In this document: positions 2,209 through 22,268 of the stretch, piece by piece
Layout of the letters: each line of letters opens with the position of its first letter
Numbering within the stretch: position 1 is the first letter of the stretch
Program-made: the position numbers and the translations under genes
Source: a virus
IMG/VR virus record: IMGVR_UViG_3300042261_002386
Location: 1-23,458 of that record
DNA length: 23,458 nucleotides
Direction: 5' to 3' (one strand)
Notes under the pieces: model-generated
The model's input: only the letters and a program-made list of their open reading frames with translations
What the model was told of the DNA's origin: nothing
Database searches by the model: none

Positions 2209-2281
2209 CCTCAAAAACACCCCAAAAACCCTCAAAAACACCTCAAAAACCCTTAAATACACCTCAAAAACCCTCAGATAT
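2209..2281. repeat. Phased A-tract array, 21-bp repeat built of 10/11-bp half-units
   Basis: Seven units of the type CCTCAAAAAC(A) follow one another with lengths 11, 10, 11, 10, 11, 10 and 10, so every pair makes a 21-bp repeat. A-tracts are centred near 2215, 2226, 2236, 2247, 2256 and 2268, an average spacing of about 10.6 bp. A-tracts repeated in phase with the helix are known to bend DNA, so the array is predicted to be strongly curved. The fifth unit (TTAAAT) and the last (CAGATAT) are degenerate. The array ends 24 bp before a TATAAT box, which suggests a promoter-upstream bend or a protein-binding array. A phage packaging or replication site is another possibility. Confidence 0.85.
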
Positions 2282-2304
2282 CCATAAGGCCCAAATACCG
2301 CCCT

Positions 2305-2330
2305 TATAATGGCTCCAAAACAAAGGAGCC
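2305..2330 (+). promoter_or_regulatory. Candidate promoter -10 box and overlapping palindrome for the phage cluster
   Basis: A perfect TATAAT lies at 2305-2310, but no good -35 hexamer is found 16-18 bp upstream (that position reads about CCATAA). Activation would therefore need the curved DNA or an activator. GGCTCC (2311-2316) pairs perfectly with GGAGCC (2325-2330) across an 8-nt A-rich loop. If transcription starts about 7 nt after the -10 box, the palindrome spans the start site and would suit an operator. If transcripts arrive from further upstream, the same hairpin would hide the GGAG Shine-Dalgarno of the next gene. Confidence 0.4.
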
Positions 2331-2336
2331 GGGCGT

Positions 2337-2546
2337 TTGAAATCAACCCTTGACAGAATTGCCGAATACGAAGCCGCCGAAACCGCCTGCCTGAAAGCCC
2401 AGCAGTACAGTGTCGGCGACACGAGCAAGGTGCAGGCCCAGCTTCGGGACATCCGGGCCGCCCTGAACGATTTGTATGAGCAGTTGGCAATCGAACAGGG
2501 GACCGCCGTATCCCGCACCTATGCCGGACAGGGGGGAAGTCGATAA
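2337..2546 (+). CDS. gpW/DUF6148-like head-tail joining protein (69 aa)
   Basis: A small helical protein occupying the place of lambda gpW, directly before the portal gene. gpW-type proteins plug the portal after packaging and form part of the head-tail interface. The sequence has an N-terminal helix (IAEYEAAETACLKAQ), a short turn (YSVGDTSKV) and a second helix (QLRDIRAALNDLYEQLA), the arrangement of short phage DUF6148/gpW-like proteins, and its length is close to the 68 aa of gpW. The start is TTG, chosen because AAAGGAG lies eight bases upstream and no ATG is available. The stop overlaps the portal start by one base (TAATG), so the two are translationally coupled. Family assignment rests on position, size and helix pattern, not on an alignment. 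Confidence 0.65.
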   Translation: MKSTLDRIAEYEAAETACLKAQQYSVGDTSKVQAQLRDIRAALNDLYEQLAIEQGTAVSRTYAGQGGSR

Positions 2547-4105
2547 TGGGACGGATTTGGAACCGGCTTCAGGCTTTAATCAACCGCGCCGTCGATAAAT
2601 ACTCCGCCGACGTCGCCCATGAAGTCGCCCTGCGACGGCATCACCAGATTCTTTCCGAACGCTCCATGCAATACGCCGCTGCAAAGACGAATCGCCTGAC
2701 CGGCGCCTGGACGACCCAGTTCCCGAACGTCAACGACATCATTTCCGCCTCATCCCCTGCCATCCGCGCCCGCGTCAACCAGTTGGTGCGCGATTTCCCC
2801 TATTTCGCCAGGGCGCTCAACAATATCGTCGATTACACAGTCGGACAGGGCATCGTCTATCAGAGCCGCGTCAAATTGTCGAACGGGAAGCTCGATAAGA
2901 AAAGAAACCAGATCATCGAAGACGCCTTCAAGTGGTGGGCGGATGAAGCGGACGCCTCCGGCAAGCTGCATTATTACGATATGATGCGCCTTGCCAAGCG
3001 GCAGGACGCCGAAATCGGCGAGTTTCTGATCGTCATGGCGCCGATCAAGGACCCGAACCGCTATCTGCCCATTGCCTTGCAAATTTACGAGGGAAACTGG
3101 CTGACCTCGGCGCGCGATAATTACGGCACCGGCGGCATCGGTCTGTCCGCCAGGCCGGGCGAAACCGAAACACGCCAGGGTATCGAGTACGAAAAGCTGA
3201 CCGGCCGGGTCAAGGGTTACTGGTTCTGCGATCCCTACCACGGCGGACAGGAAGTCTATATCCCTGCCGATCAGGTCATCCATGGTTTCGATATGCTGCG
3301 CCCCCAGCAGTTGCGCGGCATCTCCCAGATGGCCCCCGGCGTGCTCCTCGCCCACGATCTGCACGATTACATGGGCGCGGAAATCGACGGCGCCAAATTT
3401 GCGGCGAAATTCCTGGCCTTCGTCAAAAAACAGCAGCCAAGCCTCGGACAGGGATTGGGTGTGGTCACCAAGGATACCAGCGAGAAAGGCGTCACCCGCT
3501 ACATCGAAGGTCTTGAAAACGCGATTGTCGAGTATCTCAAGCCCGGTGACGACGTCGTCCTGGCCAAATCGGATCGTCCGGGAACAACCTTCACGCCCTT
3601 TGTTCGCCTCCTGTTGACGATGCTTTCCATTACGTCCGGGGTCCCTTATGAGCTTCTGACCGGCGATTACCAGGGGATCAATTTCAGCACGGCCCGGATC
3701 ATCCGAAACGATTTCCAGCAGCAGCTCCGCCCCGTCGCCATCCGTCATATCAGGCAGTTCGGCCTCAGAACCCAGCGAGGCTGCCTCGATTGGGCGGTCC
3801 TGACGGGCAAGATCAATCTGCCCGGATATTTTCAGAATCCTCGCCATTACTGGGAAAGTGAATGGCAGCCCCCCGGCATGGAAGCCGTCGATCCGTTGCG
3901 GGAAGCAAAGAGCCAGGTTGAAGCCATTCGCGCCCTGCTGAAATCGCCCCAGGAGGTCGCCCGCGAACGTGGACGGGATCTGGAAGACATTTACCGGGAA
4001 ATCAAGGAAGCCATGGATCTGGCGGAACAATACGGACTGCCTTTCGATTTGACCGGAATCGACACGACAGTGGCGCCGAATCCGGCCGCGATCATGGAGG
4101 AATAA
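2546..4105 (+). CDS. Phage portal protein, lambda gpB family (519 aa)
   Basis: Forms the dodecameric portal through which DNA enters and leaves the capsid and on which the tail assembles. The sequence shows hallmarks of the lambda-type portal family: an N-terminal LRRHHQILSERSMQYAAAKT region, a segment about residues 80-110 reading RDFPYFARALNNIVDYTVGQG, an EGNWL motif near residue 190, and the late FDMLRPQQLRGISQMAPG and YQGINFSTARIIR motifs that are highly typical of this family. The length is usual. The ATG overlaps the previous stop, and the gene ends three bases before the capsid fusion gene, whose GGAGG ribosome site is inside its last codons. No C-terminal MuF or protease extension is present. 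I see no frameshift or missing segment. Confidence 0.95.
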   Translation: MGRIWNRLQALINRAVDKYSADVAHEVALRRHHQILSERSMQYAAAKTNRLTGAWTTQFPNVNDIISASSPAIRARVNQLVRDFPYFARALNNIVDYTVGQGIVYQSRVKLSNGKLDKKRNQIIEDAFKWWADEADASGKLHYYDMMRLAKRQDAEIGEFLIVMAPIKDPNRYLPIALQIYEGNWLTSARDNYGTGGIGLSARPGETETRQGIEYEKLTGRVKGYWFCDPYHGGQEVYIPADQVIHGFDMLRPQQLRGISQMAPGVLLAHDLHDYMGAEIDGAKFAAKFLAFVKKQQPSLGQGLGVVTKDTSEKGVTRYIEGLENAIVEYLKPGDDVVLAKSDRPGTTFTPFVRLLLTMLSITSGVPYELLTGDYQGINFSTARIIRNDFQQQLRPVAIRHIRQFGLRTQRGCLDWAVLTGKINLPGYFQNPRHYWESEWQPPGMEAVDPLREAKSQVEAIRALLKSPQEVARERGRDLEDIYREIKEAMDLAEQYGLPFDLTGIDTTVAPNPAAIMEE

Positions 4106-4108
4106 CCT

Positions 4109-6136
4109 ATGCCGAAAAGTAAGCAACTCGCCATGAATTACCGATCCGCAACCATTGCACCCGTAAAGCCCGATGGACCGGCAACGCTCGACGAGGCCAC
4201 CCGCTCCGTCGATGTCGTCCTGGCGACGGAAACGCCCTGCCGGGTTTTCGACTGGGAACGCGGGATCGTCAATGAAGTGCTCCTGATGTCCGGTGCAATC
4301 ATCCCGGAAAGCCGCCAGGTGGTCATGCTGGATACGCACAGCCGTTATGAAACGGCCAGGATCATAGGGTCCGCGCGGGACATCCGAACCGAAGGGCAGG
4401 AGATGCCGGGTCGCGCGTATTTTTCCACCGCGCCGGAAGCGGAAAGCCCCTGGATCAAGACGAAGGAAGGCCATTTGACCGACTTTTCCGCCGGTTACAG
4501 TCCGGTTGAATCGATATGGATACCGGAGGGTCAAACCCAGGTCGTAGAGGGGAAAAGATATGAAGGCCCTTTGCTGGTCACGACAAAATGGATTTTGAGA
4601 GAACTGTCGGCAGTCCCCATCGGAGCCGATGAAAACGCGAAGGCAAGATCGTTAGCAACAGACGAACCCAAGGAGGAAACACAGATGGACAAGAAAGTGA
4701 GAGAGTTTTTGGAAAAAAGGGGCCTGGCCTCGACGGCGACGGAAGATGAAGCCTGGGCGTTTTTGTCGAGGATGGAAATGAAGGATGAAAAAGAGCGCAA
4801 TGATGCAGATCTCGAAAAGGCGCTTGCGGAAGCTCATGGCAAGGAATTGGAGAAGGTCCGTGCCGAGGCCACGGGCAAGGAACAGGACCGTATCCGCGAG
4901 ATCGACGCCATGCTGGAGAAATACAATTGCCAGGACTTGGCCCGCGAACTCATCGTCGGCGGTAAGACCCTGACCGAAGCCCGCCAGGCCGTCATGGACA
5001 AGATCCATGAGAAGACAAAGAATCCTGGATTTTCCGGCATGCGCTACGGTCTCGATGAACGTGACAAGTTCCGCGCGGCCGCGAACGACGCCCTCTGCCT
5101 CCACGCGGGACATGTCATTCAGAATCCGTCACCGGGCGCACAGGAATTGCGGGGCTATACCCTCGTCGAGATGGCCCGCGAATGCCTGCGCATGAACGGC
5201 GTCCATTATTTCGGGACGGTCAAGGAAATGGTCGGCCGCGCCCTGACCAGTTCGGATTTTCCGAACATCCTGGCGAACCTGGCCAACAAGTCCATGCAGG
5301 CCGGTTGGGATGGGGCAAACGAGACCTGGCCGATCTGGACCGGAGCCGGGTCCGTCAACGATTTCAAAATCCATAACGACAATGCCCTGTCGGAGTTTGA
5401 CGATCTGGAAGAGCTGAGCGAGACCGGAGAAATCAAATATGGAAAATTCTCCGAAAAACCGCCGGAAACCTATCGGGCCGTAACCTACGCCAAGAAATTC
5501 CGGGTAACGCGCACGGCCATCATCAATGACGACCTGAGCGCCTTGACGGAACTACCAACCAAGAGAGCGGAAGCGGCAAACCGCAAAATCGGCGACGTCG
5601 TCTATGCCGTCATTATCGGCAACGGAAACATGGCCGATGGCTATGCGATTTTTGAAAACGCGCATCACAAAAACGATGCGACGGGAGCAGGCCGGGCCGT
5701 CCCAAGCACAACGACCATCGCCGAGGCCATTCGGGCCATGGGCGTCCAGAAGGACATTGCCGGCAAACGCCGTTTGAACATCCGCCCGGAATTTTTCCTG
5801 GCTCCGAAAGCGTTGGAAGGCTCCAGCGAAGTCTTCTTCAAATCGGATCGCTTCGGAACGAATGAAGCATCCACCCGGGTCAATATCTATTCCGGCGATT
5901 ATTTCACCCGGGTCTATGAATCGCGCCTGGATGACGACTCCCTGACGGCCTATTACCTCATGGGTCCCAAGGGCAAGACGGTCAAGGTGGTCTTCCTGAA
6001 CGGCGTTCAGGCTCCCCTTATGGAAATGCAGCAGCCCGGATTCACCATCGAAGGGTTCGAGTACGCCGTCTCTATCGACGTCGGGGCCTACGCGATGGAT
6101 TTCCGGGGCATGTACCGTAACGAAGGGACTCCGTAA
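4109..6136 (+). CDS. Prohead protease-scaffold-major capsid protein fusion (675 aa)
   Basis: One reading frame carries three head-assembly functions. Residues about 10-175 match the HK97-type prohead protease (S78/U35 fold), with candidate catalytic His77 (MLDTHSRYE), Ser127 (TDFSAGYSP) and Glu165 (WILRELSAVPIGAD). Residues about 193-300 are highly charged and predicted coiled coil (EKALAEAHGKELEKVRAEA), a scaffold/delta-type segment. Residues about 310-675 are the major capsid domain, with the pattern of Mu gpT-like protease/capsid fusions (IWTGAGSVNDFKIHNDN, FRVTRTAIINDD, PEFFLAPKALEG, YAMDFRGMY). The protease would have to cleave itself from the capsid moiety during maturation. An internal ATG at 4685 with an ideal ribosome site could also make the scaffold-capsid part alone. 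GGAGG precedes the main start. Domain boundaries are estimated by eye. Confidence 0.9.
   Translation: MPKSKQLAMNYRSATIAPVKPDGPATLDEATRSVDVVLATETPCRVFDWERGIVNEVLLMSGAIIPESRQVVMLDTHSRYETARIIGSARDIRTEGQEMPGRAYFSTAPEAESPWIKTKEGHLTDFSAGYSPVESIWIPEGQTQVVEGKRYEGPLLVTTKWILRELSAVPIGADENAKARSLATDEPKEETQMDKKVREFLEKRGLASTATEDEAWAFLSRMEMKDEKERNDADLEKALAEAHGKELEKVRAEATGKEQDRIREIDAMLEKYNCQDLARELIVGGKTLTEARQAVMDKIHEKTKNPGFSGMRYGLDERDKFRAAANDALCLHAGHVIQNPSPGAQELRGYTLVEMARECLRMNGVHYFGTVKEMVGRALTSSDFPNILANLANKSMQAGWDGANETWPIWTGAGSVNDFKIHNDNALSEFDDLEELSETGEIKYGKFSEKPPETYRAVTYAKKFRVTRTAIINDDLSALTELPTKRAEAANRKIGDVVYAVIIGNGNMADGYAIFENAHHKNDATGAGRAVPSTTTIAEAIRAMGVQKDIAGKRRLNIRPEFFLAPKALEGSSEVFFKSDRFGTNEASTRVNIYSGDYFTRVYESRLDDDSLTAYYLMGPKGKTVKVVFLNGVQAPLMEMQQPGFTIEGFEYAVSIDVGAYAMDFRGMYRNEGTP
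4670..4687 (+). promoter_or_regulatory. Internal ribosome binding site and in-frame ATG inside the capsid fusion
   Basis: AAGGAGG at 4670-4676 is followed eight bases later by ATG at 4685-4687, in frame with the capsid fusion (codon 193). The site falls exactly between the protease domain and the scaffold-like coiled coil. Initiation here would give a 483-aa scaffold-capsid protein without protease. This resembles the nested C/Nu3 (lambda) and I/Z (Mu) arrangements, in which the scaffold is made from an internal start in the protease gene. Confidence 0.7.
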
Positions 6137-6199
6137 CATGGATTAACGAGCAAAAATAAACGACCGGCAGATACGGTCTATCAGAAGGAGGAAAGCAGC

Positions 6200-6544
6200 A
6201 TGGCAAAAAATCTTATACAGGAAGGCGACGTACTGAGATTGACGGTCGCATCCGATGTGAAAGCGGGCGATCCGGTCGTGGTCGGGGCCTTTCATGGTGT
6301 GGCCCTGACGGATTACAGCGCAACCGACGGCAAGGCGGATATCCGGCTCAAGGGGGTATTCGAACTGTCCGTGAAGGGTGTTGACGGTTCGGGTAACAGT
6401 GCCGTGGTGATTGGCGACAAGATCTACTATGTCGGCGGCGATACGCCGAAGCTTTCCAAAAAGGCGACCGGCGAATATTTCGGCATTGCCTACGGAGCCG
6501 TGACATCCGGAGCGACCGCGAACATTCCGGTCAAGCTGGTTTAG
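6200..6544 (+). CDS. DUF2190-like capsid-associated protein (114 aa)
   Basis: Small beta-rich protein next to the capsid gene, matching the DUF2190 type of phage proteins in position, length and sequence style: MAKNLIQEGDVLRLTVASDV, then AGDPVVVG, GVFELSVKG, VVIGDKIYYV and the terminal ANIPVKLV. Members usually sit directly after the major capsid gene and are thought to be head decoration or stabilisation proteins, so I infer the same role here. AGAAGGAGGA lies about nine bases before the ATG and predicts high expression, as expected for a protein needed in capsid-like copy numbers. A strong hairpin follows 20 bases after the stop and may separate its expression from the lysis genes. Confidence 0.85.
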   Translation: MAKNLIQEGDVLRLTVASDVKAGDPVVVGAFHGVALTDYSATDGKADIRLKGVFELSVKGVDGSGNSAVVIGDKIYYVGGDTPKLSKKATGEYFGIAYGAVTSGATANIPVKLV

Positions 6545-6564
6545 GCAGAACGTGAGATAAAACA

Positions 6565-6590
6565 GTGGGGCGGCGACCGTGCCGCCCCAC
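6565..6590 (+). other. Strong 10-bp perfect hairpin between head and lysis genes
   Basis: GTGGGGCGGC (6565-6574) and GCCGCCCCAC (6581-6590) pair perfectly around the six-base loop GACCGT. The stem is almost all G-C. It is followed by CCACAACAAAATG rather than a T-run, so it is not a classical intrinsic terminator. It lies 20 bases after the DUF2190-like stop and 28 bases before the start of the next gene, where it could act as a partial terminator, an RNase stop protecting the upstream capsid messages, or a translational brake. Confidence 0.8.
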
Positions 6591-6618
6591 CCACAACAAA
6601 ATGACAAGGGGACGACGG

Positions 6619-6807
6619 ATGGCCGAGAATTCAATGCTTTTGTGGGCACTGGGGGGATTGCAGACGGTTAATCTGTTACTCCTCGGTTGGATCAAGCTGG
6701 ACATAAACCAGCTATGGCAACGCGCCAACACACACGGCCACAAGATCGAGTGTGACGTGGATAAATGCAAACCCAAAACCACCGCCGTCATTATTCACGA
6801 GGCGTAA
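6619..6807 (+). CDS. Small membrane protein of the lysis region (62 aa)
   Basis: Short protein with one clear membrane segment (about residues 6-24, LLWALGGLQTVNLLLLGWI) and a cytoplasmic or periplasmic tail with helix propensity (KLDINQLWQRANTHGHKIE) and two cysteines (ECDVDKC). I chose the ATG at 6619 because AAGGGG lies about seven bases upstream. Earlier in-frame starts at 6565 (GTG inside the hairpin) and 6601 lack this. The position just before an endolysin suggests a holin, antiholin or XhlA-like accessory protein, but the sequence alone does not decide. Its stop is two bases before the amidase start, so the pair is co-translated. Confidence 0.6.
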   Translation: MAENSMLLWALGGLQTVNLLLLGWIKLDINQLWQRANTHGHKIECDVDKCKPKTTAVIIHEA

Positions 6808-6809
6808 AG

Positions 6810-7241
6810 ATGATCCCTAAAAGCATGATCATCCACCATTCACTGACAAAGGACGGCCAGACCGTTTCCTGGGGCGCGATCCGTCGCTACCACATAGAGG
6901 AGAACGGCTGGTCGGATATCGGTTACCACTACGGCGTGGAGCTGATCGGAGATCATTATGAAATTCTGGCAGGCAGGCCGGAGAATTTGCCCGGTGCACA
7001 CTGCACGGGTAAAAATGACGACACCCTGGGGATCTGTTTTGTCGGGAATTTCGATCTGGCGCCGCCGCCGGACGCCATGATGCGGCGGGCGGTTGAAGTC
7101 TTTTACCCGATCATGCGCCGCCTGGTCATCCCACCGGAAAATGTTTTTGGGCACCGTGATTTTTCTCAGAAAACCTGCCCCGGAACGCAGTTTCCCCTGG
7201 AACAGTTTCGCGCAGCGCTTCGTTGTGGGCGCTGGAGTTAA
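6810..7241 (+). CDS. N-acetylmuramoyl-L-alanine amidase, phage endolysin (143 aa)
   Basis: Amidase_2/PGRP-type zinc enzyme that cuts the bond between MurNAc and L-alanine in peptidoglycan for host lysis. The residues match T7 lysozyme in order and spacing: zinc ligands His9 or His10 (MIIHHS), His115 (GHRD) and Cys123 (KTCPG), plus catalytic Tyr39 (IGYHYG) and Lys121. The H-x5-K-x-C spacing is exactly as in T7. No signal peptide is present, so release would depend on a holin. I used the ATG at 6810, since translation from the longer in-frame start at 6765 would add residues with no family resemblance. The length is normal for a single-domain endolysin, with no cell-wall-binding domain. Confidence 0.93.
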   Translation: MIPKSMIIHHSLTKDGQTVSWGAIRRYHIEENGWSDIGYHYGVELIGDHYEILAGRPENLPGAHCTGKNDDTLGICFVGNFDLAPPPDAMMRRAVEVFYPIMRRLVIPPENVFGHRDFSQKTCPGTQFPLEQFRAALRCGRWS

Positions 7242-7254
7242 GGGAGAAGAAAAC

Positions 7255-7719
7255 ATGACAACAGGAATACCCGTGATTGACGTAATCGTAGCCCTCGGCG
7301 GACTGATCATCCCGCCTTTTTTCGATTTCATCAAAAAGAAATGGGTTAAGGGCGAAGCCGACACCCCGGAAAGAACCATGGCGTCCCTGGCCACAACGAA
7401 ACCGGAATCATTGCCTGGCTATGTCGAGGCCCTCAGCAAGTATATCGATTCCCAGGTGCGGTTGTTCAATCGGGATGTGACCGGCGCCGCCAGCCAGTGG
7501 GTTGTGGATCTCCGGGCCTGTATCCGGCCGATCACCGTGGCGGTTTCCCTTGTGGTCCTGGTGGGGCTCGCGTTCATCTATCTCAATGTGGACGAACAGC
7601 AGATGAAACCGATGATTTCCGAAGGGCTCTCCGGCATTCGTATCACCTGCGAGGGGATCGCCACATCATGGATCGGCAGCCGGATCGCTGTCGGCGGAAC
7701 GAAAACCATACAGCAGTAG
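7255..7719 (+). CDS. Holin-like membrane protein (154 aa)
   Basis: Protein with an N-terminal hydrophobic segment (about residues 6-24, VIDVIVALGGLIIPPFFDF), a basic patch (IKKKW), a soluble helical middle, and a second strong membrane segment (about residues 93-112, ITVAVSLVVLVGLAFIYLNV). A weaker hydrophobic stretch lies near the C-terminus. This layout and the place right after the endolysin fit a phage holin that permeabilises the inner membrane. The start at 7255 is preceded by AGGGAGAAG. An upstream in-frame start at 7093 lies within the amidase gene and is unlikely. A named holin family cannot be chosen by eye, so the role is inferred mainly from topology and neighbourhood. Confidence 0.65.
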   Translation: MTTGIPVIDVIVALGGLIIPPFFDFIKKKWVKGEADTPERTMASLATTKPESLPGYVEALSKYIDSQVRLFNRDVTGAASQWVVDLRACIRPITVAVSLVVLVGLAFIYLNVDEQQMKPMISEGLSGIRITCEGIATSWIGSRIAVGGTKTIQQ

Positions 7720-7727
7720 GCCGCCCC

Positions 7728-8054
7728 ATGACAACACCCGCCGATGTTGCCTATATGTACCAGGACCTTCTGGCGTCCGGTCTCTCGACGGGAATGGTCA
7801 CCGTCACGACGGCCGGCGCCGTAAAGACGGTACCGGCAATTATCCGTTACGGCAAAGGCGACAAGTACAAGGGCGCTGACGGCTTCGGCGTCGTCGCAAC
7901 CCTGAGAATTCAGGCCCAGGGCGACCAGGGCGTGGAACTGATCACAAAGAAGACAGAAATAACCATCGGGGCCGGAATCTGGCGGGTCATCGATGCGGAC
8001 AAATCCGCTTCCGGCCTGGAATGGATCGTCCAGGTCAATAAGGTAACGAGCTGA
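7728..8054 (+). CDS. Head-tail connector/attachment protein (108 aa)
   Basis: Small beta-rich protein (PAIIRYGKGDKYKGADGFGV, ATLRIQAQG, TEITIGAGIWRVIDAD, WIVQVNKVTS) at the junction between the head and tail modules. Its size and style fit the lambda gpFII / SPP1 gp16-like head-tail stopper or attachment proteins, which cap the connector and dock the tail. No diagnostic motif is visible, so the call is positional. The ATG at 7728 is five bases after an AGTAGG-like site. The stop overlaps the following ATG by one base, indicating coupling with the tail-completion gene. Confidence 0.55.
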   Translation: MTTPADVAYMYQDLLASGLSTGMVTVTTAGAVKTVPAIIRYGKGDKYKGADGFGVVATLRIQAQGDQGVELITKKTEITIGAGIWRVIDADKSASGLEWIVQVNKVTS

Positions 8055-8773
8055 TGCAGATCAATATCGGGCGACATTCGGGAGAATTCGGGGCCGAGAA
8101 TATCGAGGCAATGTTCGCCGAGTTTCCGCAATATGCCCGACGGGCCTTGACATCGGCCCTGTCCGCCGAAGGGTTCCGCTTGAAAACCATCGTGTCAAAA
8201 ACTATTCACGACGGCGGGCCGAATGGTTCCTGGAAGGCGCTCAATCCTCACACGGCCTACCTGAACCGGGCGGCATTTCGCACGATCAAGACCTGGCGCA
8301 TGTCCCGCAAGGGCTTAAAAAGAGGCGAGGCGTCCCGCAAAGTGAGCATGTCGCTGGAAGAAAGAAGCAAGCGCTTCGTTAAAACAAGTAAATCGCCTTT
8401 GCTTAAGCTGAAGGGTGCGGTCCGCTACCGTGTGGACCGGGAAGAAATGTACGCGAACATCGGATTTATCGGTGACGATGCCAGGGGCTACCGCATCCGT
8501 CGGATCGTCAGTCACGCCGCGGAGGGTTTCCGCACACCAGTCACCAGATTGATGCGCCGTTTCGCCTTCGGCCTGGGTTTCCCCCTGAGAAAGGAGACGA
8601 CCGAACTGGTCGCTCCGGCCCGCCCCCTTATCAGGCCCGTATTTCAAAAAGAAGAAGGCAATATCGTGCGCAACATTTCCATGCGCGTGGCAAACAATAT
8701 CACCCGCTACCGGCATGGATTGGAGAAGGACTGGGACGCCTTTCTGCGGGATGACGGAGGGAATTTCCGATGA
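8054..8773 (+). CDS. Tail completion protein, gpZ/HK97 gp10-like (239 aa)
   Basis: Very basic protein with an N-terminal helix pair (FPQYARRALTSALSAEGFRL) and a long Arg/Lys-rich middle. Its C-terminal APARPLIRPVFQKEEGNIVRN motif is typical of minor tail/tail completion proteins of the gpZ and HK97 gp10 type, where Arg-Pro-(Phe/Ile) precedes the final helix. Such proteins finish the tail end that meets the head connector. The length is near that of lambda gpZ (192 aa), with extra basic residues. The start overlaps the previous stop, and its own stop overlaps the next start (ATGA). Family assignment is moderate and would need a profile search. Confidence 0.7.
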   Translation: MQINIGRHSGEFGAENIEAMFAEFPQYARRALTSALSAEGFRLKTIVSKTIHDGGPNGSWKALNPHTAYLNRAAFRTIKTWRMSRKGLKRGEASRKVSMSLEERSKRFVKTSKSPLLKLKGAVRYRVDREEMYANIGFIGDDARGYRIRRIVSHAAEGFRTPVTRLMRRFAFGLGFPLRKETTELVAPARPLIRPVFQKEEGNIVRNISMRVANNITRYRHGLEKDWDAFLRDDGGNFR

Positions 8774-9243
8774 GCGAGGCCCTGATCCGCGCACAGATCG
8801 AGACGATCCTGGAGACGGTGCCCGGAATCGGCGTTGTTTACGACTACGAGCGATACGCCCGGTCCCTGGGTGATTATTTCAAGCTGATGACCCCGGTCGG
8901 GCAGGATGCGGTCAACGGCTGGGTTATCCACCGGGAGGAAACGAAATCCCGCCAGGTGACGATGGGACTACTCGGACAGATCGAACGTGTTCATTCCTAC
9001 CGGATCGCCGGCCTTTACGACATGGATGATGCCGCCGGTTCCGAGAAAGTCTTCCAGGCTATCCTGGACGGAATATTCACGGCGTTCAAAGCAAACGGTA
9101 CGTTGAACGGTACGGCGACAAGCCACGATCAGATTCAGATCGATGAAGTCACGGTCTGCCTGGAAGATGAATTCGGCAGCAGCCTTTACCACGTGGCGGA
9201 TTGCACCCTGACCGTCACCGAACGGGTCGATATCATGACTTAA
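8770..9243 (+). CDS. Tail terminator-like protein, gpU type (157 aa)
   Basis: Protein of alpha-beta character: an N-terminal helix (ALIRAQIETILETVPGIGVVYD), then strands containing VNGWVIHREE and VHSYRIAGLYDM, a helix (SEKVFQAILDGIFTAFKAN) and a last strand pair ending in CTLTVTERVDI. This order is that of gpU-like tail terminators, which stop tail-tube polymerisation and bind the head connector. Position between the tail-completion and tail-tube genes supports it. The ATG overlaps the preceding TGA. A strong AGGAGG site for the next small gene lies right after the stop. Confidence 0.65.
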   Translation: MSEALIRAQIETILETVPGIGVVYDYERYARSLGDYFKLMTPVGQDAVNGWVIHREETKSRQVTMGLLGQIERVHSYRIAGLYDMDDAAGSEKVFQAILDGIFTAFKANGTLNGTATSHDQIQIDEVTVCLEDEFGSSLYHVADCTLTVTERVDIMT

Positions 9244-9255
9244 CAGGAGGAACCC

Positions 9256-9441
9256 ATGAAGAAACTATTTTACGACGAAGGGCCGTTGCTCATGTCTTGC
9301 GGCGCCGCTGGGATTTTCAGGATCAACGAACCGCGGGACTTGGATGACAGCCTGGCGGAGGTCCTGATCAAAAAGGGCCGCCTGAAGGAATGGCCGGGTG
9401 AGCCAGCAAAGATCACAAAAGGCCGGGAAAAGGAGGAATAA
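9256..9441 (+). CDS. Small phage protein of unknown function (61 aa)
   Basis: Unrecognised 61-residue protein (MKKLFYDEGPLLMSCGAAG..., then a Lys/Glu-rich tail). It is a real gene on three grounds: ACAGGAGGAACCC stands directly before the ATG, its codon use matches its neighbours, and it fills the gap between the terminator-like and tube genes without spare bases. The opening half looks like a small beta module ending in IFRINEPRDLDDSLAEVLIKKGRLK, a pattern also seen in small phage and Mu-like proteins in which an aspartate-rich helix defines a binding element. Only three bases separate its stop from the next start. Confidence 0.6.
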   Translation: MKKLFYDEGPLLMSCGAAGIFRINEPRDLDDSLAEVLIKKGRLKEWPGEPAKITKGREKEE

Positions 9442-9444
9442 ACC

Positions 9445-10416
9445 ATGAGCCAGCAGCGCGGTGCGAACGTCACCATTATTTTCGACACGGAAACCACCTT
9501 CAAAGCCACGCCGGGAACGCCCGACGCGATGGTTTTACCCTATGTTACCGAATCGATCCGGCTTAACCGCAACCTGATCGAATCCAAGACAAACCGCTCC
9601 ACGCGCAACCCCCAGATGCCGGGCCGGGGCAAAGTGGACGTCGGCGGCGATATCAACTTCGAGCTTTCGCCGCAGTGCGGCAGGCTCCTGAAGCATATCT
9701 TCGGCGATTATGTCAAAACCGGTTCCGCCGCGCCCTACACCCACACCTACAAGATCGGCGATCTGCCCGCCGGCATGGTGATTGAAAAGCAGTTCAAGGA
9801 CCTGGCAACACCCAAGTTCTTCCAGTACAACGGCTGCAAGATCAATCAGTTCAAGTGCGCGGTAAAGCCCGAAGGCATGATCGATTGTTCCGTATCCGTG
9901 ATGGGAGCCAAGGAAACCATTGCCGACGCCAGTTTCGACAGCACTCCCACGGATATCGGACACAAGCCTTTCGACGGTTTTTCGGGGTCCGTCAAGCAGG
10001 GTGGCGCGGCCATCGGGATCGTGACGGACTTTAACTTCACCCTCGATAATGCCCTGGACGGCGAGACATATGTTCTGGACGGGACCGGACAGCGCTACTC
10101 TATGGCCGAGGGCAAGGTTAAGCTTGAAGGTTCGATCCAGGTTATTTTCGACAGTATCACCCTTTACAACCTGGCCATCGGCCATACGGAAACCAGCCTG
10201 GAACTCCATTTTACGTTCGGGGACGGACTCGGCGGCTCCTCCGGTAACGAAAAGCTCTCCTTCTGCTTCGATGAGATCATCTTCAAGCCCCAGGCGCCGG
10301 TGGTGAGCGGACCGACTGGCCTGCAGGTGGAAATACCCTTCCAGGCTTTTTACAACGACGATGCAGACGCTTCGGCCTGCCGGGCAGTCCTGTTGTCGCC
10401 CATTTCGACCTTCTGA
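9445..10416 (+). CDS. Phage tail tube protein (323 aa)
   Basis: Polymerises into the inner channel of the long tail. The sequence is dominated by beta strands and has features of the Phage_tube_2-type tail tube proteins: an N-terminal IIFDTETTFKATPGTPDAM, the segment NRSTRNPQMPGRGKVDVGGD, FELSPQCGRLLKHIFGDY, and a C-terminal half with a GVVTD-like turn and LEVEIPFQAFYND-like ending. Two tandem beta-domains are suggested by its length (323 aa), longer than a single-domain tube protein. AAAAGGAGG lies nine bases before the ATG, giving the high expression expected of the tube. It precedes the tail chaperone pair and tape measure, the usual order in siphoviruses. No sheath gene follows, so the tail should be non-contractile. 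Confidence 0.88.
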   Translation: MSQQRGANVTIIFDTETTFKATPGTPDAMVLPYVTESIRLNRNLIESKTNRSTRNPQMPGRGKVDVGGDINFELSPQCGRLLKHIFGDYVKTGSAAPYTHTYKIGDLPAGMVIEKQFKDLATPKFFQYNGCKINQFKCAVKPEGMIDCSVSVMGAKETIADASFDSTPTDIGHKPFDGFSGSVKQGGAAIGIVTDFNFTLDNALDGETYVLDGTGQRYSMAEGKVKLEGSIQVIFDSITLYNLAIGHTETSLELHFTFGDGLGGSSGNEKLSFCFDEIIFKPQAPVVSGPTGLQVEIPFQAFYNDDADASACRAVLLSPISTF

Positions 10417-10427
10417 GGTGACGCGGC

Positions 10428-10883
10428 ATGGAACCCATAAAATATGAAATCGACGGTACGGTTTACACGCAGCGCCCCCTTGTCCTGGGCCAGATCGGAC
10501 AAGTGGTTGATGCGTTACGGGATTTTACCATGCCGGCACGTGCGAACGGCGTCGATCTGGTCATGATGCTCGGTGACAAACTGCCGGGGCTCCTGGCAAT
10601 TGTTCTCGGCATCGAGGGCGTGCCCATGCAGAACAAGGATATCGCCGCCCTGACGGAAGAACTCCGGTATTCGGTTCCAACGGAAACGGCGATCAAAATG
10701 GTTGACGATTTTTTCGTCTGCAACCCGATAGCTTCTCTTGCGGAGAAGATGTCGGGATGGATGGAAATACTCACCGCCTGGATTCTGGCCAGGTATGGAT
10801 CGACGACCTTGTCGTCATGCTCTCCGGCGGAGATATCACCCGGCGCGATGCAATCCAATGGGGATTCACCCTCCGGGACGTAA
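10428..10883 (+). CDS. Tail assembly chaperone, gpG-like upstream frame (151 aa)
   Basis: The gene between tail tube and tape measure, where lambda encodes G and G-T. The protein opens with a beta hairpin (IKYEIDGTVYTQRPLVLGQI), followed by helices (IGQVVDALRDF, LPGLLAIVLGIEGVP) and VPTETAIKMVDDFFVCNP, as in other gpG-like chaperones that coat the tape measure during assembly. Coding character is good to about 10790 and poor in the last 30 codons (Ser/Pro-rich), where the overlapping -1 frame takes over. A slippery heptamer T TTT TTC is in frame at 10709-10715. The start is ATG with GAGG nine bases upstream. The gpG role is inferred from context and fold pattern. Confidence 0.65.
   Translation: MEPIKYEIDGTVYTQRPLVLGQIGQVVDALRDFTMPARANGVDLVMMLGDKLPGLLAIVLGIEGVPMQNKDIAALTEELRYSVPTETAIKMVDDFFVCNPIASLAEKMSGWMEILTAWILARYGSTTLSSCSPAEISPGAMQSNGDSPSGT
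10709..10748 (+). other. Candidate -1 ribosomal frameshift site with downstream hairpin
   Basis: T TTT TTC at 10709-10715 is in frame 0 of the chaperone gene and fits the X XXY YYZ rule. The -1 frame has its last stop (TGA) at 10703-10705, only four bases before the heptamer, and is then open to 11071. CTTCTC (10732-10737) and GAGAAG (10743-10748) form a 6-bp stem 16 bases further on. This spacer is longer than the usual 5-9 bases. A slip would give a G-T product of about 214 aa. No other slippery heptamer was found in the overlap. Confidence 0.45.
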
Positions 10884-11071
10884 AACCGTATGCCGAATAC
10901 CGGTCACGGGAGATCCGCTTCCGCGAGGCTGTGATCAGATTTCTCTGCGGGCCGGATAAAAAGGAGATCACGGACAAGTATTGCGAGAACTGCCGCCGGG
11001 CGGGCCGTGACATCGATTGTGCAACTTGTCCAAAAACGATCAGCATCATGGAACAAGACAAGGAAACATAA
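10757..11071 (+). CDS. gpT-like tail chaperone partner with Cys4 motif (104 aa, -1 frame)
   Basis: Overlaps the chaperone gene by 127 bases in the -1 frame and stops directly before the tape measure ATG, the position of lambda T. It may be made as the C-terminal part of a frameshifted G-T protein or from its own ATG at 10757 (GGAG lies 11 bases upstream). Strong coding character starts about 10790 (VWIDDLVVMLSGGDITRRDA). The C-terminus has C76-x2-C79-x8-C88-x2-C91, a zinc-ribbon or knuckle spacing, with another Cys at 64. Lambda T has no comparable cluster as far as I know, so the metal site is a distinguishing feature. Function is inferred from place: an adaptor between the chaperone-coated tape measure and tube subunits. 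Confidence 0.7.
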   Translation: MDGNTHRLDSGQVWIDDLVVMLSGGDITRRDAIQWGFTLRDVKPYAEYRSREIRFREAVIRFLCGPDKKEITDKYCENCRRAGRDIDCATCPKTISIMEQDKET

Positions 11072-13213
11072 ATGCCCATTTCCAAAGCAGACGTTCAAAT
11101 TATTCTCAGCGCAAAAGACCAGGCTTCCGGCGTGGTCAAGCAATTCGGCTCAAACGCCGAAAAGGCTCTGCGCGATATTGAGACCTCGGCATCACGGTTC
11201 AATACAACGTTCGATAAACTCAAGCAGAATTGGCTCGGTCTTGCCGCAACCGCATACGCCGCCAAGGAAACGATGGCGACGTCATGGAATATGATCAAAG
11301 CCGGGGCTGACTATGAAGAGCAAAGCGGTATTCTCGATAATCTTTCCCAAAAATACAAAACGACTGCCAACGACATCGTCGAATCAATGCGTCAGGCCAG
11401 CGACGGGCTCATCGCCGATGCGGATCTGATGCAGGTAGCGCTCGGCGGTATTGCCAAAGGCCTGAAACCCGAACAGTTGACCGAACTTGCCTCCGCCGCC
11501 GCTTTGCTGGGCGATACCGCAGGAAAAACAGCGACCGAGGCCCTGCAGGACCTTACGGAAGCACTGGAGACCGGGCGGACAAAAGGTCTTAAAAATTATC
11601 TCGGCACCACCCTCGATCTTAAAGATTCTTTCGGTGATCTTGAATCTAAAATGACGGCGGTCGAGAAGGCAAACGCCATGTATGCCATTACGATGCTTGA
11701 GTATTCGAAGGCACAGGCCCAACAAAAGTCTGAAGTCGATCAAGCTGCGGATGGCGTTGAACGCCTTGAAGCCAAGTGGAAAAATCTCGGTACGACGATA
11801 TCGCGTGGAATGAAATGGTTTGCCGTCTCAGCGGCGGACTGGGCTTCTGGCGGCTGGCTATCCATGGAAGAATATGCCCGCAGATCGGCTGATAAGCAAG
11901 CCGCCGGTGATAAGTCAAAAAACGCACAGTTAAAAGTAAATCAATATCAGGCGGAGATTGACCGTCTCAAGAAACTGCTCCTGAACAGGGAAGACCCCAA
12001 AGGCGGTGGCGGTAAAGGCGGCGGCACCGGCAACAAAGACGGAAAGAGCGAGGCGAAAAAGGCCGCCGAGGATCGTATCAAGCGAGGCCAGGAGCTTATT
12101 TTGTCTCTGACCAAGGAGCGCGATTTGATCCGGGCCGTCACCGAAGAGGAACGTGTCCGCTGGGAGTTGTCCCAGGGTAAAGGGAAGGATCTGGCCGAAA
12201 AATACAAGCAGGAAGCCATCGCCATCGCCCGGCAAATCGATGCGCAAAACGCGAAGAAGAGGGCCGATGAGGAAAGCGCCGCCAAGACCGCCGCAATTGA
12301 AACCGAAATCTCTGAATTGAAAAAGCAGAGCGACATGTTCGGTATGACGGAAAGCGCCGCCCGCCTCTATGAAATGTCTCTCAAGGGCGCGACAGCCGAA
12401 CAACTGAAATCGGCCGATACTCTGATGGCGGACATCGAACTCAAGCGCCAACTCCAGCAGGTGCTGGAGGGTATCCGCACCCCCCAGGATGAATACAATC
12501 AACAGGTGTCGCTTCTGGATGTGCTGATGCAAAAGGGCATGCTCACAACTGAGCAGTATGCGTTGGCCCTGCAGAAGGCCAAGGAAAACATGGAAAACGC
12601 TGACAGCGATAACATCTTCTCCCTGGAACGTCTGGGCGAAGGGATCCAGCAATGGTCAAGCAATTCCATCGATGCAGTGGTTAATTTCGCCACGACAGGC
12701 AAGGGACAGTTCAAGGATTTCGTTACGAGCGCCCTGGCGGATCTGGCCAAACTGGCCGCACAGGAAGCCAAGATGGGGCTCATCAAGCTGGGTATCAGCC
12801 TGGTCGGATCGTATTTCGGCGGTGGGACGGTCACGGGAACGGCTTACAACGCGGGTGTCGCAGCGAACTTTACCGGCGGCGGTTTGGGCTTTCACAAAGG
12901 CGGCCTGGCCACGGAACCGACCTTTATCCGCGTCGGCCTCAATCCCCGGATTTTCGACATGGCCCCGCGTTATCATTCAGGTATCGGTCCCGGTGAGACG
13001 GCAGCAATCATCGACAAGAAAGAAGGTATTTTCACGGAAGGCCAGATGAAGGCCCTCGGCCTGATGGCCAATGCCGGAATCACGAAGGAAAAAGCCCCCT
13101 CCCCCCAGAACATCCGGATAGTCAACGTCCTTGACCCCGGCATTGTGGAAAACTGGGCCAGCTCGGCGGCCGGGGAACGGGTGATCATGAACGTGATCAG
13201 GAGGAACCAGTAA
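11072..13213 (+). CDS. Tail tape measure protein (713 aa)
   Basis: Sets tail length and is ejected ahead of the DNA. The sequence is mostly helical, beginning with the VQIILSAKDQASGVVKQFGS pattern common to tape measures. It then shows a helical bundle (about residues 60-230), Lys/Gly-rich linkers (about residues 310-325, GGGGKGGGTGNKDGKSEAKK) and a long charged coiled coil (325-500). The C-terminal part resembles lambda gpH (SLERLGEGIQQWSSNSIDAV, then a Gly-rich segment and FHKGGLATEPTFIRVG). At roughly 0.15 nm per residue the tail would be about 100 nm, shorter than lambda's. The stop codon meets the next ATG with no gap. Length and organisation are normal for a small siphovirus; no transglycosylase or peptidase domain is seen. 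Confidence 0.93.
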   Translation: MPISKADVQIILSAKDQASGVVKQFGSNAEKALRDIETSASRFNTTFDKLKQNWLGLAATAYAAKETMATSWNMIKAGADYEEQSGILDNLSQKYKTTANDIVESMRQASDGLIADADLMQVALGGIAKGLKPEQLTELASAAALLGDTAGKTATEALQDLTEALETGRTKGLKNYLGTTLDLKDSFGDLESKMTAVEKANAMYAITMLEYSKAQAQQKSEVDQAADGVERLEAKWKNLGTTISRGMKWFAVSAADWASGGWLSMEEYARRSADKQAAGDKSKNAQLKVNQYQAEIDRLKKLLLNREDPKGGGGKGGGTGNKDGKSEAKKAAEDRIKRGQELILSLTKERDLIRAVTEEERVRWELSQGKGKDLAEKYKQEAIAIARQIDAQNAKKRADEESAAKTAAIETEISELKKQSDMFGMTESAARLYEMSLKGATAEQLKSADTLMADIELKRQLQQVLEGIRTPQDEYNQQVSLLDVLMQKGMLTTEQYALALQKAKENMENADSDNIFSLERLGEGIQQWSSNSIDAVVNFATTGKGQFKDFVTSALADLAKLAAQEAKMGLIKLGISLVGSYFGGGTVTGTAYNAGVAANFTGGGLGFHKGGLATEPTFIRVGLNPRIFDMAPRYHSGIGPGETAAIIDKKEGIFTEGQMKALGLMANAGITKEKAPSPQNIRIVNVLDPGIVENWASSAAGERVIMNVIRRNQ

Positions 13214-14398
13214 ATGGCCTACCAGACCGGCACGGCGGACAATTACAAGCACCTGCTGACGAAGCTGCGTAAATTCATCACGGCGACCAACTGGGTATCC
13301 CAGCGCTGGCAGACGTCTGGAACCGGCGCAATCATCAAGGTCCAGAGCACACCGAACGCCGGCGGCAGCGGGTATACCGTAAGCGACGTGCTGAACGTCG
13401 TCCAGACGGGCGGGTCCGGCGCCACGGTCCGGGTGCTGACGGTCGGCGGTAGTGGCAATGTCCTTACCCTTGAGCTGGTTGCCGCCGGATCGGGTTACAT
13501 GGCCGACTCCGGTGTGACCACCAGCGGCGGGACCGGGACCGGCTGCACCTTAGAATTCGAAGTCAACGGTGAATATGAACTGATAGCCAAGGGCACCGGC
13601 CTGGAAAGCTCCGATGAAATCTATATCGGCATCAAAACCTTTTCCTCCGATGTCGGCGATTATTACAACTGGCTATTGAGTGGATTTCTCGGGTTTAATT
13701 CGGGCCTATCGTTCGATCAACAGCCGGGCGGCATTGCCGTCACGCCGGAACGACCCCGTATAAGCCTGTTCAACGACACGATGAAATATTGGTTCATCGC
13801 CGATGGTCGGCGGGTCATCGTCATTGCCAAGGTGTCCACCGTTTACGAAGCCGCTTACCTGGGCCTGCTCAATCCCTACCTGCCGCCTTCGTCTATGCCC
13901 TACCCTCTCCTCATCGCCGGGACGCACACCGGTTACAGCGGAGAACGCTGGTCTATCCAGAATGTAACGCATTCATTGGGCATCATGTACCCCAACTGCT
14001 GTAATACCAGTTCGACGGAAGGAGATATCCTGGCCAATCCAAGATCGCCATGCCGCTTCTGGAACGGTGAGTGGCACGGCATCCAGCATAGTTTTAACAA
14101 TACCGGTGCATATCAGACGGACATGAAAGCCCTTTGGCCTTATTGCCGGTATAATCATGCCCGCTTTAACAACCTGCGTTCCAATATTAATGATGGGGCC
14201 TATACCCTGGTCCCGGTGATCTTGCACATGAATTCCCCATCGCCGAATATTTTCGGCGAGTTGGATGGCGTCTTTTTCATTACGGGCTTCAACAACGCGG
14301 CGGAAAATATCCATGCCATCGGGGGCAAGGACTATCTTGTCGTGCCGAATGTTTACCGGAACGGCATCTTCGATTATTGCGCAGTGAGGTTATCCTGA
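13214..14398 (+). CDS. Virion-associated protein, paralogue A with Gly-rich insertion (394 aa)
   Basis: Unnamed structural-type protein just after the tape measure. It shares with the next gene an N-terminal module (MAYQTGTADNYKHLLTKLRKF) and a C-terminal module (GGKDYLVVPNVYRNGIFDYC), so the two arose by duplication. Compared with its paralogue, residues about 38-118 are extra: GGSGYTVSDVL and AAGSGYMADSG repeats with beta-strand spacing, like the Gly-Ser-Gly-Tyr modules of phage fibres. The central region is rich in aromatic residues (YYNWLLSGFLGFNSG, FWNGEWHG), suggesting a beta-fold tail-tip or adhesion role. AGGAGG precedes the ATG, and it overlaps the next gene by one base. The family name is not known to me. 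Confidence 0.7.
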   Translation: MAYQTGTADNYKHLLTKLRKFITATNWVSQRWQTSGTGAIIKVQSTPNAGGSGYTVSDVLNVVQTGGSGATVRVLTVGGSGNVLTLELVAAGSGYMADSGVTTSGGTGTGCTLEFEVNGEYELIAKGTGLESSDEIYIGIKTFSSDVGDYYNWLLSGFLGFNSGLSFDQQPGGIAVTPERPRISLFNDTMKYWFIADGRRVIVIAKVSTVYEAAYLGLLNPYLPPSSMPYPLLIAGTHTGYSGERWSIQNVTHSLGIMYPNCCNTSSTEGDILANPRSPCRFWNGEWHGIQHSFNNTGAYQTDMKALWPYCRYNHARFNNLRSNINDGAYTLVPVILHMNSPSPNIFGELDGVFFITGFNNAAENIHAIGGKDYLVVPNVYRNGIFDYCAVRLS

Positions 14399-15378
14399 TG
14401 GCATACGAAACAGGCTCGGCAACGGGCGTCAACGATCTGATCGGCAAGCTGAAGACCTTTCTGGAAACAAACGGTTATACGATCAACAGTTTTACCGCGA
14501 TTAAAACCGGCTACCGCCTGCATGTCCAGAAAGGGGACCTCTATATCAATCTGCGGTCCGCTTTTAATGAAACCTATGCGGCACAAAATCAATCCTTGGC
14601 GTTTTGGGGCATCGCCCTGAACGGCTCGACCGGTTACGATGCAGGCGCGGCCGGCGGAGACTTTGCCTGGCATAACCAGCCCGGACGGCCCGGGCAGACG
14701 GGAGGAAGCTCTTATGGTCTTGTCTCCGTTGCCGGGGGTATGAATGCCGCCATACCCAGTTATTATTTCTTTCTGGATACGGACGGCTTTTGCGCCTGCA
14801 TCGAGATTTCGACGGGCGTGTTTCGCTGGTTTTACTGGGGTAAACTGACCCTGTTCGGCAATGTGGGCGGGAATGCCCTTGACGGTTTTTTCACCGGCGG
14901 CGTATCGGGACCGTTCAATTTCTTGAATGATTCGCTCAATCCGTTCTGCAATGTGTTCGGCGATTATGGCCCCGTCTTTTTCCTGTATTTTAACGTGCCG
15001 GAGAACACGCAAAAATGGTTCAGTGCAGCCAACAGTGTGGGGTCCTACGGCCGGACAACGGGACTTCTTGCCTTTACGCCGTTCAGCAATAGCCTGACGG
15101 CCACTAGCGAAAACTATGCGGGCTACCTCCATAACCTGATGCGGTCGATTCCCGGTAACCTCGGCAACCTCTCGCCGCTTCTGCCTTGCTATATGGGCGT
15201 CGCCACGCCTACCCGGGACACCCTGCTCGGCCATTTCGATATGGTGCGCCTGACCCGCATCGCCGGGTTTACTACCGGGCAGGAAGTATCCCTCGGTGGA
15301 AAGACCTGGAAGGTGCTGCCAGCCATTTCCCGCACCCATGCGGACGGGTACGCCGTGGCCGTGAAGAAAGTGGCCTGA
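14398..15378 (+). CDS. Virion-associated protein, paralogue B (326 aa)
   Basis: Second copy of the duplicated pair. The N-terminus MAYETGSATGVNDLIGKLKT, a short hairpin (YRLHVQKGDLYINLRSAF) and the C-terminal GGKTWKVLPAISRTHADGYA correspond to paralogue A, but the 80-residue Gly-Ser-rich segment is absent. The centre is rich in Phe, Tyr and Trp (VFRWFYWGKLTLFG), as in beta-structured tail-tip proteins. The ATG at 14398 overlaps the previous TGA by one base. An in-frame upstream ATG (14377) exists but is inside the preceding coding sequence. GAGGT precedes the chosen start. Function is unknown; a tail-tip or fibre-attachment role fits the location between tape measure and distal tail genes. 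Confidence 0.7.
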   Translation: MAYETGSATGVNDLIGKLKTFLETNGYTINSFTAIKTGYRLHVQKGDLYINLRSAFNETYAAQNQSLAFWGIALNGSTGYDAGAAGGDFAWHNQPGRPGQTGGSSYGLVSVAGGMNAAIPSYYFFLDTDGFCACIEISTGVFRWFYWGKLTLFGNVGGNALDGFFTGGVSGPFNFLNDSLNPFCNVFGDYGPVFFLYFNVPENTQKWFSAANSVGSYGRTTGLLAFTPFSNSLTATSENYAGYLHNLMRSIPGNLGNLSPLLPCYMGVATPTRDTLLGHFDMVRLTRIAGFTTGQEVSLGGKTWKVLPAISRTHADGYAVAVKKVA

Positions 15379-15380
15379 TC

Positions 15381-17039: not shown

Positions 17040-17796
17040 AATCTACCGCTTCGCATCGCGAACCGAACGCTGGCTGTTTACCTCGGCGGATCGGGACCAG
17101 CTCCATCTGGGCGAAACCTATACGGCCGTGCCGATCGGGCGTGAAAAAATCGAGATGACCGAAAACATCCACAAGGCCACCCTTACCGTCAGCGTTCCGC
17201 GCGACAACGCCCTGGCTTCCAGGTACTTCGCGGACCGGCCGGAATCGACGGTCACGCTGACTGTCTTTGAGATCGGCGGGCCGTCACCCCGGACCATCTG
17301 GAAAGGCCGCATCGTTTCGGTGAATGCGGCGGGCGCCAGGGTCAAGATCACCCTGGAATCCATCTTCACGTCCCTCAATCGGCCGGGCCTGCGGGCGGTC
17401 TATCAGTTATCGTGCCGGCACGCGCTTTATGGCGTCTGCTGCCGCGTTTTGTCCAGCCAGCACCAGACGCTGGCCAATATCACCGCCATATCGGGCGTCA
17501 CCTTGACCGTAAGCGGTATCGGGGGGGTCGCCGCCGGCTGGTTCACGTCGGGCTACCTCGTTCAGGAAGGCATCCGGTACCGGATGATCATGGCCCATAC
17601 AGGCGACCAGATCACCATCGACCGGCCGCTGCGGCATACGGGTGAGATCCGCATCTATCCGGGCTGTAACCACCTGATGTCCGACTGTAAAAACAAATTC
17701 GACAATCATCTTAATTTCGGCGGCTTCCCCTGGATACCGGGGCAGACGCCATTCGAGGGGCTGGGCGCGCTCGGCGTGGCACCTAGGGCGCTATAA
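17026..17796 (+). CDS. Phage BR0599/DUF2163-like tail hub protein with Cys cluster (256 aa)
   Basis: Tail-tip protein of the Phage_BR0599/DUF2163 type, related in position and pattern to GTA gp13 and functionally to lambda gpL. Its C-terminal part has Cys at about 130, 138, 139, 214 and 221 (YQLSCRHALYGVCC; PGCNHLMSDCKNKFDN), followed by FGGFPWIPGQTPFEG, a signature ending of the family. Lambda gpL binds a [4Fe-4S] cluster in its C-terminal domain, so an iron-sulphur or other metal site is likely here too (inference). The N-terminal domain is a beta-barrel-like region. The start overlaps the preceding gene by 14 bases; a second ATG follows at 17029. The gene sits between Dit-like and tip-attachment genes, as expected. 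Confidence 0.88.
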   Translation: MMRVEIYRFASRTERWLFTSADRDQLHLGETYTAVPIGREKIEMTENIHKATLTVSVPRDNALASRYFADRPESTVTLTVFEIGGPSPRTIWKGRIVSVNAAGARVKITLESIFTSLNRPGLRAVYQLSCRHALYGVCCRVLSSQHQTLANITAISGVTLTVSGIGGVAAGWFTSGYLVQEGIRYRMIMAHTGDQITIDRPLRHTGEIRIYPGCNHLMSDCKNKFDNHLNFGGFPWIPGQTPFEGLGALGVAPRAL

Positions 17797-17805
17797 GGTA
17801 AAACC

Positions 17806-20472: not shown

Positions 20473-20477
20473 TCATC

Positions 20478-22223: not shown

Positions 22224-22257
22224 TCCGCACCTGTTGATGTTTTGACTTAAATATACT

Positions 22258-22268
22258 GTTCCTGGAAC
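22258..22268. promoter_or_regulatory. Perfect palindrome upstream of the HNH-like gene, possible operator
   Basis: GTTCC-T-GGAAC is a perfect inverted repeat 35 bases before the minus-strand start at 22223. Reading leftward, a TATATT hexamer (22255-22250) follows it, with only a weak -35 (CTTATG at 22278-22273) at 17 bp spacing, so the palindrome would lie in the promoter spacer. Repressor binding is plausible but not supported by a known protein; a LexA-type site is only a suggestion. Confidence 0.3.

Follow-up and report, generated by a model that had tools for sequence, protein, structure and literature searches.

An anchored, helically phased repeat array precedes the head–tail operon of phages linked to Thermodesulfobacteriota hosts

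Directly upstream of its head–tail operon, the viral DNA analysed here (an IMG/VR virus record of 23,458 bases, called the window in its entirety) carries a tandem array of 10/11-bp units that starts at a short anchor, TGTCAA, and reaches a −10-like promoter element. This layout before the gpW gene is common to related phages, while the letters of the repeats differ. With a probability of roughly 0.55, the structural operon would be controlled through this array, to which a putative winged-helix activator would bind head-to-tail.

The operon forms a co-directional gene set on the plus strand (2337–21200, 18.9 kb), a head/tail cluster encoding a gpW-like adaptor, a lambda-family portal, a protease–capsid fusion, a decoration protein, an amidase, a tail tube, a tape measure, tail proteins and a DUF2793 protein. 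Its first gene, which starts with TTG, encodes the gpW-like head–tail adaptor (2337–2546; phrog_118, E 5e-7) and is followed on the same strand by the portal (2546–4105; PF05136, E 8e-76) and the fusion of head maturation protease and major capsid protein (4109–6136; phrog_4523, E 2e-135; PF25209). The amidase/endolysin gene lies among the head genes (6765–7241), and two adjacent genes (13214–14398 and 14377–15378) both match phrog_687 (structural protein), which suggests a duplication. After the cluster, the opposite strand (21402–22945) carries a weak HNH-like gene, whose match misses the Pfam threshold, as well as an SRAP-domain gene. The window starts 2.3 kb before gpW, and its positions 1–2336 open inside what relatives have as a variable gene insert between a winged-helix gene and the array. 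The GC content is 30–32% at the left end (1–750) versus about 57% in the phage cluster. The minus-strand gene at 1000–2034 encodes a protein without a family match, for which a pattern scan of viral contigs gave no relative and a search of 297 genomes gave two adjacent weak matches in a single one (G228).

TRF reports the array at 2208–2276 with a period of 11 (6.5 copies) and at 2209–2276 with a period of 21 (3.2 copies at 91% matches). With 115, the second of these scores highest among the 11 TRF rows for the whole window. The six A-tracts at a spacing of about 10.6 bp, on which the original prediction was built, are present on the plus strand and start at 2213, 2224, 2234, 2245, 2255 and 2266 (spacings of 11, 10, 11, 10 and 11 bp), the tract at 2255 being AAA only. 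A 22-letter repeat pattern, allowing up to three mismatches, matches three times in the window and never in 100 dinucleotide shuffles. All three matches sit inside the array. The single 11-letter unit (one mismatch allowed) matches four times, all within the array, and is less telling, since one of 100 shuffles also gives four. The self-match of 2203–2292 at lag 21 is 0.74 (z 7.0). The element exceeds the originally predicted interval of 2209–2281 and runs from the anchor (2203–2208) as far as the −10. The anchor is part of a conserved block, CAGACCTGTCAAC (2197–2209), and the units pair into 21-bp double units over 2209–2276. A weaker continuation on the same strand (2277–2292) reaches the promoter motif. 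The window has no Rfam match.

Relatives were collected through the portal, by searching a seven-portal alignment against IMG/VR and taking the best 80 of 146 candidates encoding a relative. Portal relatives also occur at five loci in named genomes, titled Desulfobacterales, Geobacteraceae, Desulfarculus, Desulfarculaceae and Phycisphaerales (the last at 26% identity). The first three of these names belong to the Thermodesulfobacteriota (NCBI taxonomy), and a search of 395 Thermodesulfobacteriota genomes gave 10 with a portal match of E 1e-60 or lower. The 80 upstream regions reduce to 56 non-redundant ones (<80% identity) and to 48 usable loci, after removal of four in which no anchor was found by pattern (L016, L043, L078 and L081) and four in which the anchor is doubtful or lies in coding sequence (L018, L054, L088 and L092). 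Where several anchors fitted, the last one was taken.

The anchor TGTCAA occurs in 44 of the 56 non-redundant upstream regions versus 4.7 expected. The units that follow it measure 10 bp (L085 and L087), 11 bp (L035), 20 bp (L053 and L109) or 21 bp (L065). Self-match over the 48 arrays is highest at lags of 10 (z 19.6), 20 (z 17.0; peak at 20–21) and 31 (z 10.9), and 40 of the 48 are individually significant (p < 0.05), kinship among related phages being only partly removed from these statistics. In 29 loci of less than 60% identity, C-rich steps recur at about +7, 17, 27, 38, 48, 57 and 67 from the anchor, with A/T in between. The best periods from the anchor are 10.1 bp for A, 10.1 for C, 10.5 for G and 10.3 for T, and the anchor-phase coherence of each base is matched by none of 300 rotations. 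L004 (portal identity 63%) has the identical 13-letter block and then a different tandem repeat with a 22-bp unit, in the same place before gpW. Relatives keep the place before gpW, and the letters of the repeat change.

Neither the repeat nor the block proved useful as a search handle. The exact 21-mer was found elsewhere only in L007 and L008, outside the family; each has one copy behind the end of a gene, in nearly the same sequence context, and these matches are attributed to chance. Among six stretches matching CAGACCTGTCAACNNNAAAA, the only family member is L010, the contig of L004. Loci added later were inspected by eye: array-like repeats are present in L123 (reversed), L125, L128, L154, L157 and L175, weak ones in L135, L137 and L138, and no clear repeats were seen in L124, L129, L131 and L133 (all reversed) or in L156. 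Two more distant portal relatives (L128, 951–1080; L125, 1065–1115) have long 10-bp arrays before gpW with very different letters, made of AAGT-type and AAAACCGGAC-type units.

An unbiased EM motif search between anchor and gpW in the 48 loci returned AAAAnCCCnTGnTATAAT, which has a sigma-70 extended −10 profile (T.93 A.97 T.63 A.53 A.39 T.88) and a likelihood (LL) of 292.9 versus at most 100.4 in 12 shuffled sets. The window version of the motif, AAATACCGCCCTTATAAT (2293–2310, plus strand), is without the TG and ends in the −10 hexamer TATAAT (2305–2310). This hexamer is without a recognisable −35, because a strict −35/−10 scan of 2000–2600 gave no plus-strand promoter. As for the anchor itself, reading TGTCAA as a minus-strand −35 was rejected after inspection by eye, which gave no fitting −10 in a few phages.

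The distance from anchor to motif is quantized. In the 48 loci it falls at 67–70 (5 loci), 76–79 (16 loci) and 86–90 (16 loci, with the window at 90), and the remaining 11 loci lie at 61–62, 82 and 94–111, the motif having been learned on the same loci as these counts. For the 29 non-redundant loci, 2000 uniform and 2000 jittered nulls each contain a single one whose spacing is as coherent as that observed. Taken from the distances alone, the period is broad (9–11 bp), with its best value at 9.55 and R 0.60 at 10.5. Among 11 later loci, five have the anchor–motif pair, three in phase (L075, L132 and L156) and two off phase (L175, which has 11-bp units, and L061), and six have none. In 6 of 47 loci, versus 0.5 expected, the 160 bp ahead of the anchor hold a terminator-like site; a control stretch has such sites in 0 of 48. 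In some phages the start codon follows only a few bases past the −10, a gap short enough that it would suit a leaderless mRNA.

The −10 of the window and a Shine–Dalgarno-like AGGAG are enclosed by an inverted repeat on the plus strand (2299–2335), with arms CGCCC (2299–2303) and GGGCG (2331–2335), and GGCTCC (2311–2316) and GGAGCC (2325–2330). The predicted fold energy is −20.0 kcal/mol for 2290–2345, i.e., for a read-through RNA, and −1.7 kcal/mol for 2317–2345, i.e., for an RNA starting at about 2317; the pairing z in the window is −2.4. Across 40 loci with a long enough leader, the −10 region pairs with the leader at a mean z of −1.5 and at z < −2 in 14 of 40, whereas the control pairing of leader and array segment has a mean z of 0.04 and z < −2 in 0 of 40. 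In addition, a terminator-like hairpin overlies the promoter in 5 of 48 loci versus 0.4 expected. The pairing is not universal, as the other 26 of the 40 loci fail z < −2. The inverted repeat could silence read-through mRNA of the operon, or it is possibly a promoter-overlapping terminator. Only the read-through RNA would be muted, because RNA from the operon's own promoter lacks the 5′ arm.

Between TerL and gpW, the relatives encode a winged-helix protein of 52–125 residues with the consensus GMKEIxxYxxRSExTxLxWIRxxxFPAxK..WESD..ID.WR. Its gene is found by tBLASTn in 39 of 56 loci. With an HMM derived from the proteins of these same phages, it is detected in 40 of the 41 close relatives with a covered TerL–gpW interval, and in 0 of 9 distant ones, which are one related group counted as array-less, six of them having been tested as such (L019, L020, L024, L025, L027 and L028). 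The sole exception among the 41 close relatives, L078, is likewise without the anchor. Ten of the 40 gene-bearing phages lack either a significant array or a usable anchor, and a crude test of co-occurrence over 79 loci (38/12/17/12) gave p 0.13, with a fixed stretch that may include coding DNA and with loci of short upstream sequence counted. In several phages, 1–3.7 kb of other genes separate the winged-helix gene from the array. No terminase was recognised among the window proteins scanned and no winged-helix gene in 1–2336, likely because such intervening genes fill the 2.3 kb before gpW; the winged-helix gene of the window's phage would then sit to the left of the first base of the record.

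The AlphaFold model of the winged-helix protein of L080 (pLDDT 90.9) shows a winged helix in which the last helix is long. Its best match by VIA-align is 6hn7_B (RppC/lambda TerS 1–98; Z 7.4, 62 residues, 1.4 Å), whose chain B, judged by its length, would be the TerS part. The viral packaging motors 7lw0 and 7lwr follow (Z 5.8 and 5.7), and then the GIsul2 excisionase (5.7), RdfS (4.8), BldC (4.7) and the Pukovnik Xis (4.6). Scores in this middling range point to a shared domain, not to a function. All Foldseek matches have E-values above 1, the PDB sequence search gave a best E of 0.78 (RacA), and the L080 protein has no match in the phage collection searched.

The fold matches and the gene order bear on a rather unlikely alternative, in which the array is a cosB or pac element bound by a winged-helix protein resembling the small terminase subunit. 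The leading matches are to TerS and to packaging motors, the gene comes after TerL, and the anchor with AAA is a single occurrence in 11 of the 12 phage records holding it. However, 11 of the 21 loci that leave enough room carry a separate, second TerS-like gene upstream of TerL, a putative label that rests on sequence character because L005 and L018 gave no Pfam or PHROG match. Lambda cosB resembles the present element in its vicinity to the terminase and in being bound through a winged-helix domain, that of TerS, which is the best fold match of the candidate protein. It is described as R3-I1-R2-R1 with an inverted R2 and an IHF site (PMC9026076), whereas the arrays here read as direct repeats that follow each other head-to-tail at one-turn steps. 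Furthermore, the conserved motif that borders the array has the profile of a −10, and in some phages terminators lie ahead of the array. The earlier suggestion that the array marks a packaging site fits less well than that of transcription or protein binding, and no incidental sign of the replication site, also suggested, was found.

In the preferred reading, activation by a bound winged-helix protein, the array would be the upstream regulatory region of a −35-less promoter of the extended −10 type that opens the head–tail operon at gpW. Each 10–11-bp unit, with its C-rich step and its A/T step, would be one binding site, and protein monomers would line up on these units head-to-tail, along a single face of the helix, from TGTCAA onward. 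The short filament so formed would extend to the RNA polymerase site and activate, or otherwise gate, transcription. The likeliest protein would be the one encoded between TerL and the array region in relatives. Published proteins of this fold (Apl, RdfS and BldC) occupy direct repeats spaced by one helical turn; they line up head-to-tail, cooperatively and with low sequence demand (PMC7498355, PMC11963761 and PMC5859096). An anchored array ending at a −35-less promoter at a whole-turn distance would give a filament-type activator the layout it requires. That little sequence is demanded would explain why the arrays drift in their letters and keep their geometry. It would also explain why array and winged-helix sequences show no link once portal distance is allowed for (partial Mantel r 0.018 with n 34, a value reached in 783 of 2000 permutations), a result that equally fits an unrelated protein.

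The same filament might instead act as a repressor or silencer that holds the structural operon off until induction. This is unlikely, although the anatomy would be the same and Apl represses promoters through cooperative one-turn binding and spreading (PMC7498355). We favour activation because the −35 is missing, and such a promoter would usually call for help, not for blocking; in addition, the array lies upstream of the start site, not over it.

Strong intrinsic curvature was the core of the original prediction, and modelling agrees with it for the window. With Bolshoy–Trifonov wedge parameters, 2209–2281 is modelled to bend by 110° versus 34 ± 18° for shuffles, a value reached by 0 of 1000, and the array ranks 7th of 7795 windows of 73 bp. 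The window thus combines phased A-tracts with strong predicted curvature, as an intrinsically curved upstream activating sequence does. In a rival reading, phased A-tracts would act alone, by bending the DNA or as an UP-element for the alpha subunit of RNA polymerase, with no dedicated protein. We regard this as improbable. Related arrays exceed their shuffles at z > 2 in only 8 of 33 cases (median z 1.6), and only 14 of 48 arrays have at least three A-tracts of four (23 of 48 if T4 is counted too). The units of L087 and L017 are without A-tracts, and the anchor and the co-occurring gene would be left unexplained. Curvature was therefore rejected as the conserved working principle. The earlier proposal that such an array could promote transcription or be the site of an architectural protein agrees with the −10-like motif at a helically quantized distance and with the upstream winged-helix gene. 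A Rho-utilisation stretch, C-rich and G-poor, that halts read-through into the operon is very unlikely. It would suit the composition of the gene strand, on which the arrays average 0.30 C and 0.13 G and C exceeds G in 43 of 48, but such a signal needs neither a 10.1–10.5-bp helical phase from the anchor nor a quantized spacing.

Among known systems, the P-box of Pseudomonas aeruginosa pyocins is the closest functional parallel. It usually consists of four tandem repeats of 10–11 nt to which the activator PrtN binds, 60–100 bp ahead of a bacteriocin gene or of a gene derived from a phage tail (PMC4905994). Several tandem repeats of 10–11 nt upstream of a phage-derived gene cluster are likewise found here. 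However, its consensus ATTGnn(n)GTnn(n) has no match in the window array and at least three such units in 0 of 48 arrays, and six winged-helix proteins of relatives gave no Pfam match to the PrtN family up to E 0.1. The anchor, the quantized spacing and the RNA inverted repeat are found here but do not figure in the excerpted P-box description (PMC4905994). Excisionase/RDF operators (Apl of phage 186, RdfS and Xis) place one monomer per turn on direct repeats, with cooperativity, low specificity, DNA bending and also transcriptional control (PMC7498355 and PMC11963761). They resemble the present arrays in their direct repeats one helical turn apart, and the candidate protein has a related fold, whereas the arrays here are longer, regular, before a structural operon, and not known at an att site or early promoter. 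BldC of Streptomyces, a small MerR-like winged-helix protein among the fold matches above, forms a head-to-tail filament in which the wing reads the AT-rich minor groove and the helix a C–G pair (PMC5859096). In contrast to the proteins considered here it is a host developmental regulator, not a phage protein, and its protomer consensus AATTxxxx(C) is absent from the window array and present in at least two copies in 1 of 48 arrays. A limited literature search returned no printed account of the present element and nothing on late-gene control of phages linked to Thermodesulfobacteriota hosts. A more speculative and quite improbable extension would have a TerS-like winged-helix protein polymerise from the fixed anchor along a fast-evolving one-turn array, serving both as the switch of the head–tail operon and as a start mark for the terminase, with the inverted repeat at the promoter muting all other mRNA.

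In sum, what looked like a lone AT-rich oddity becomes, through the genomes of relatives, a recurring and testable promoter architecture in phages linked to Thermodesulfobacteriota hosts. Because the arrays vary naturally, with units without A-tracts, periods of 10–11 bp and steps of about one turn in anchor distance, one and the same element allows the effect of curvature to be told apart from that of protein binding. From the inverted repeat over the promoter comes a suggestion of how a phage could silence its capsid genes under read-through, and the arrays can show how an array of sites alters its letters yet holds its geometry.
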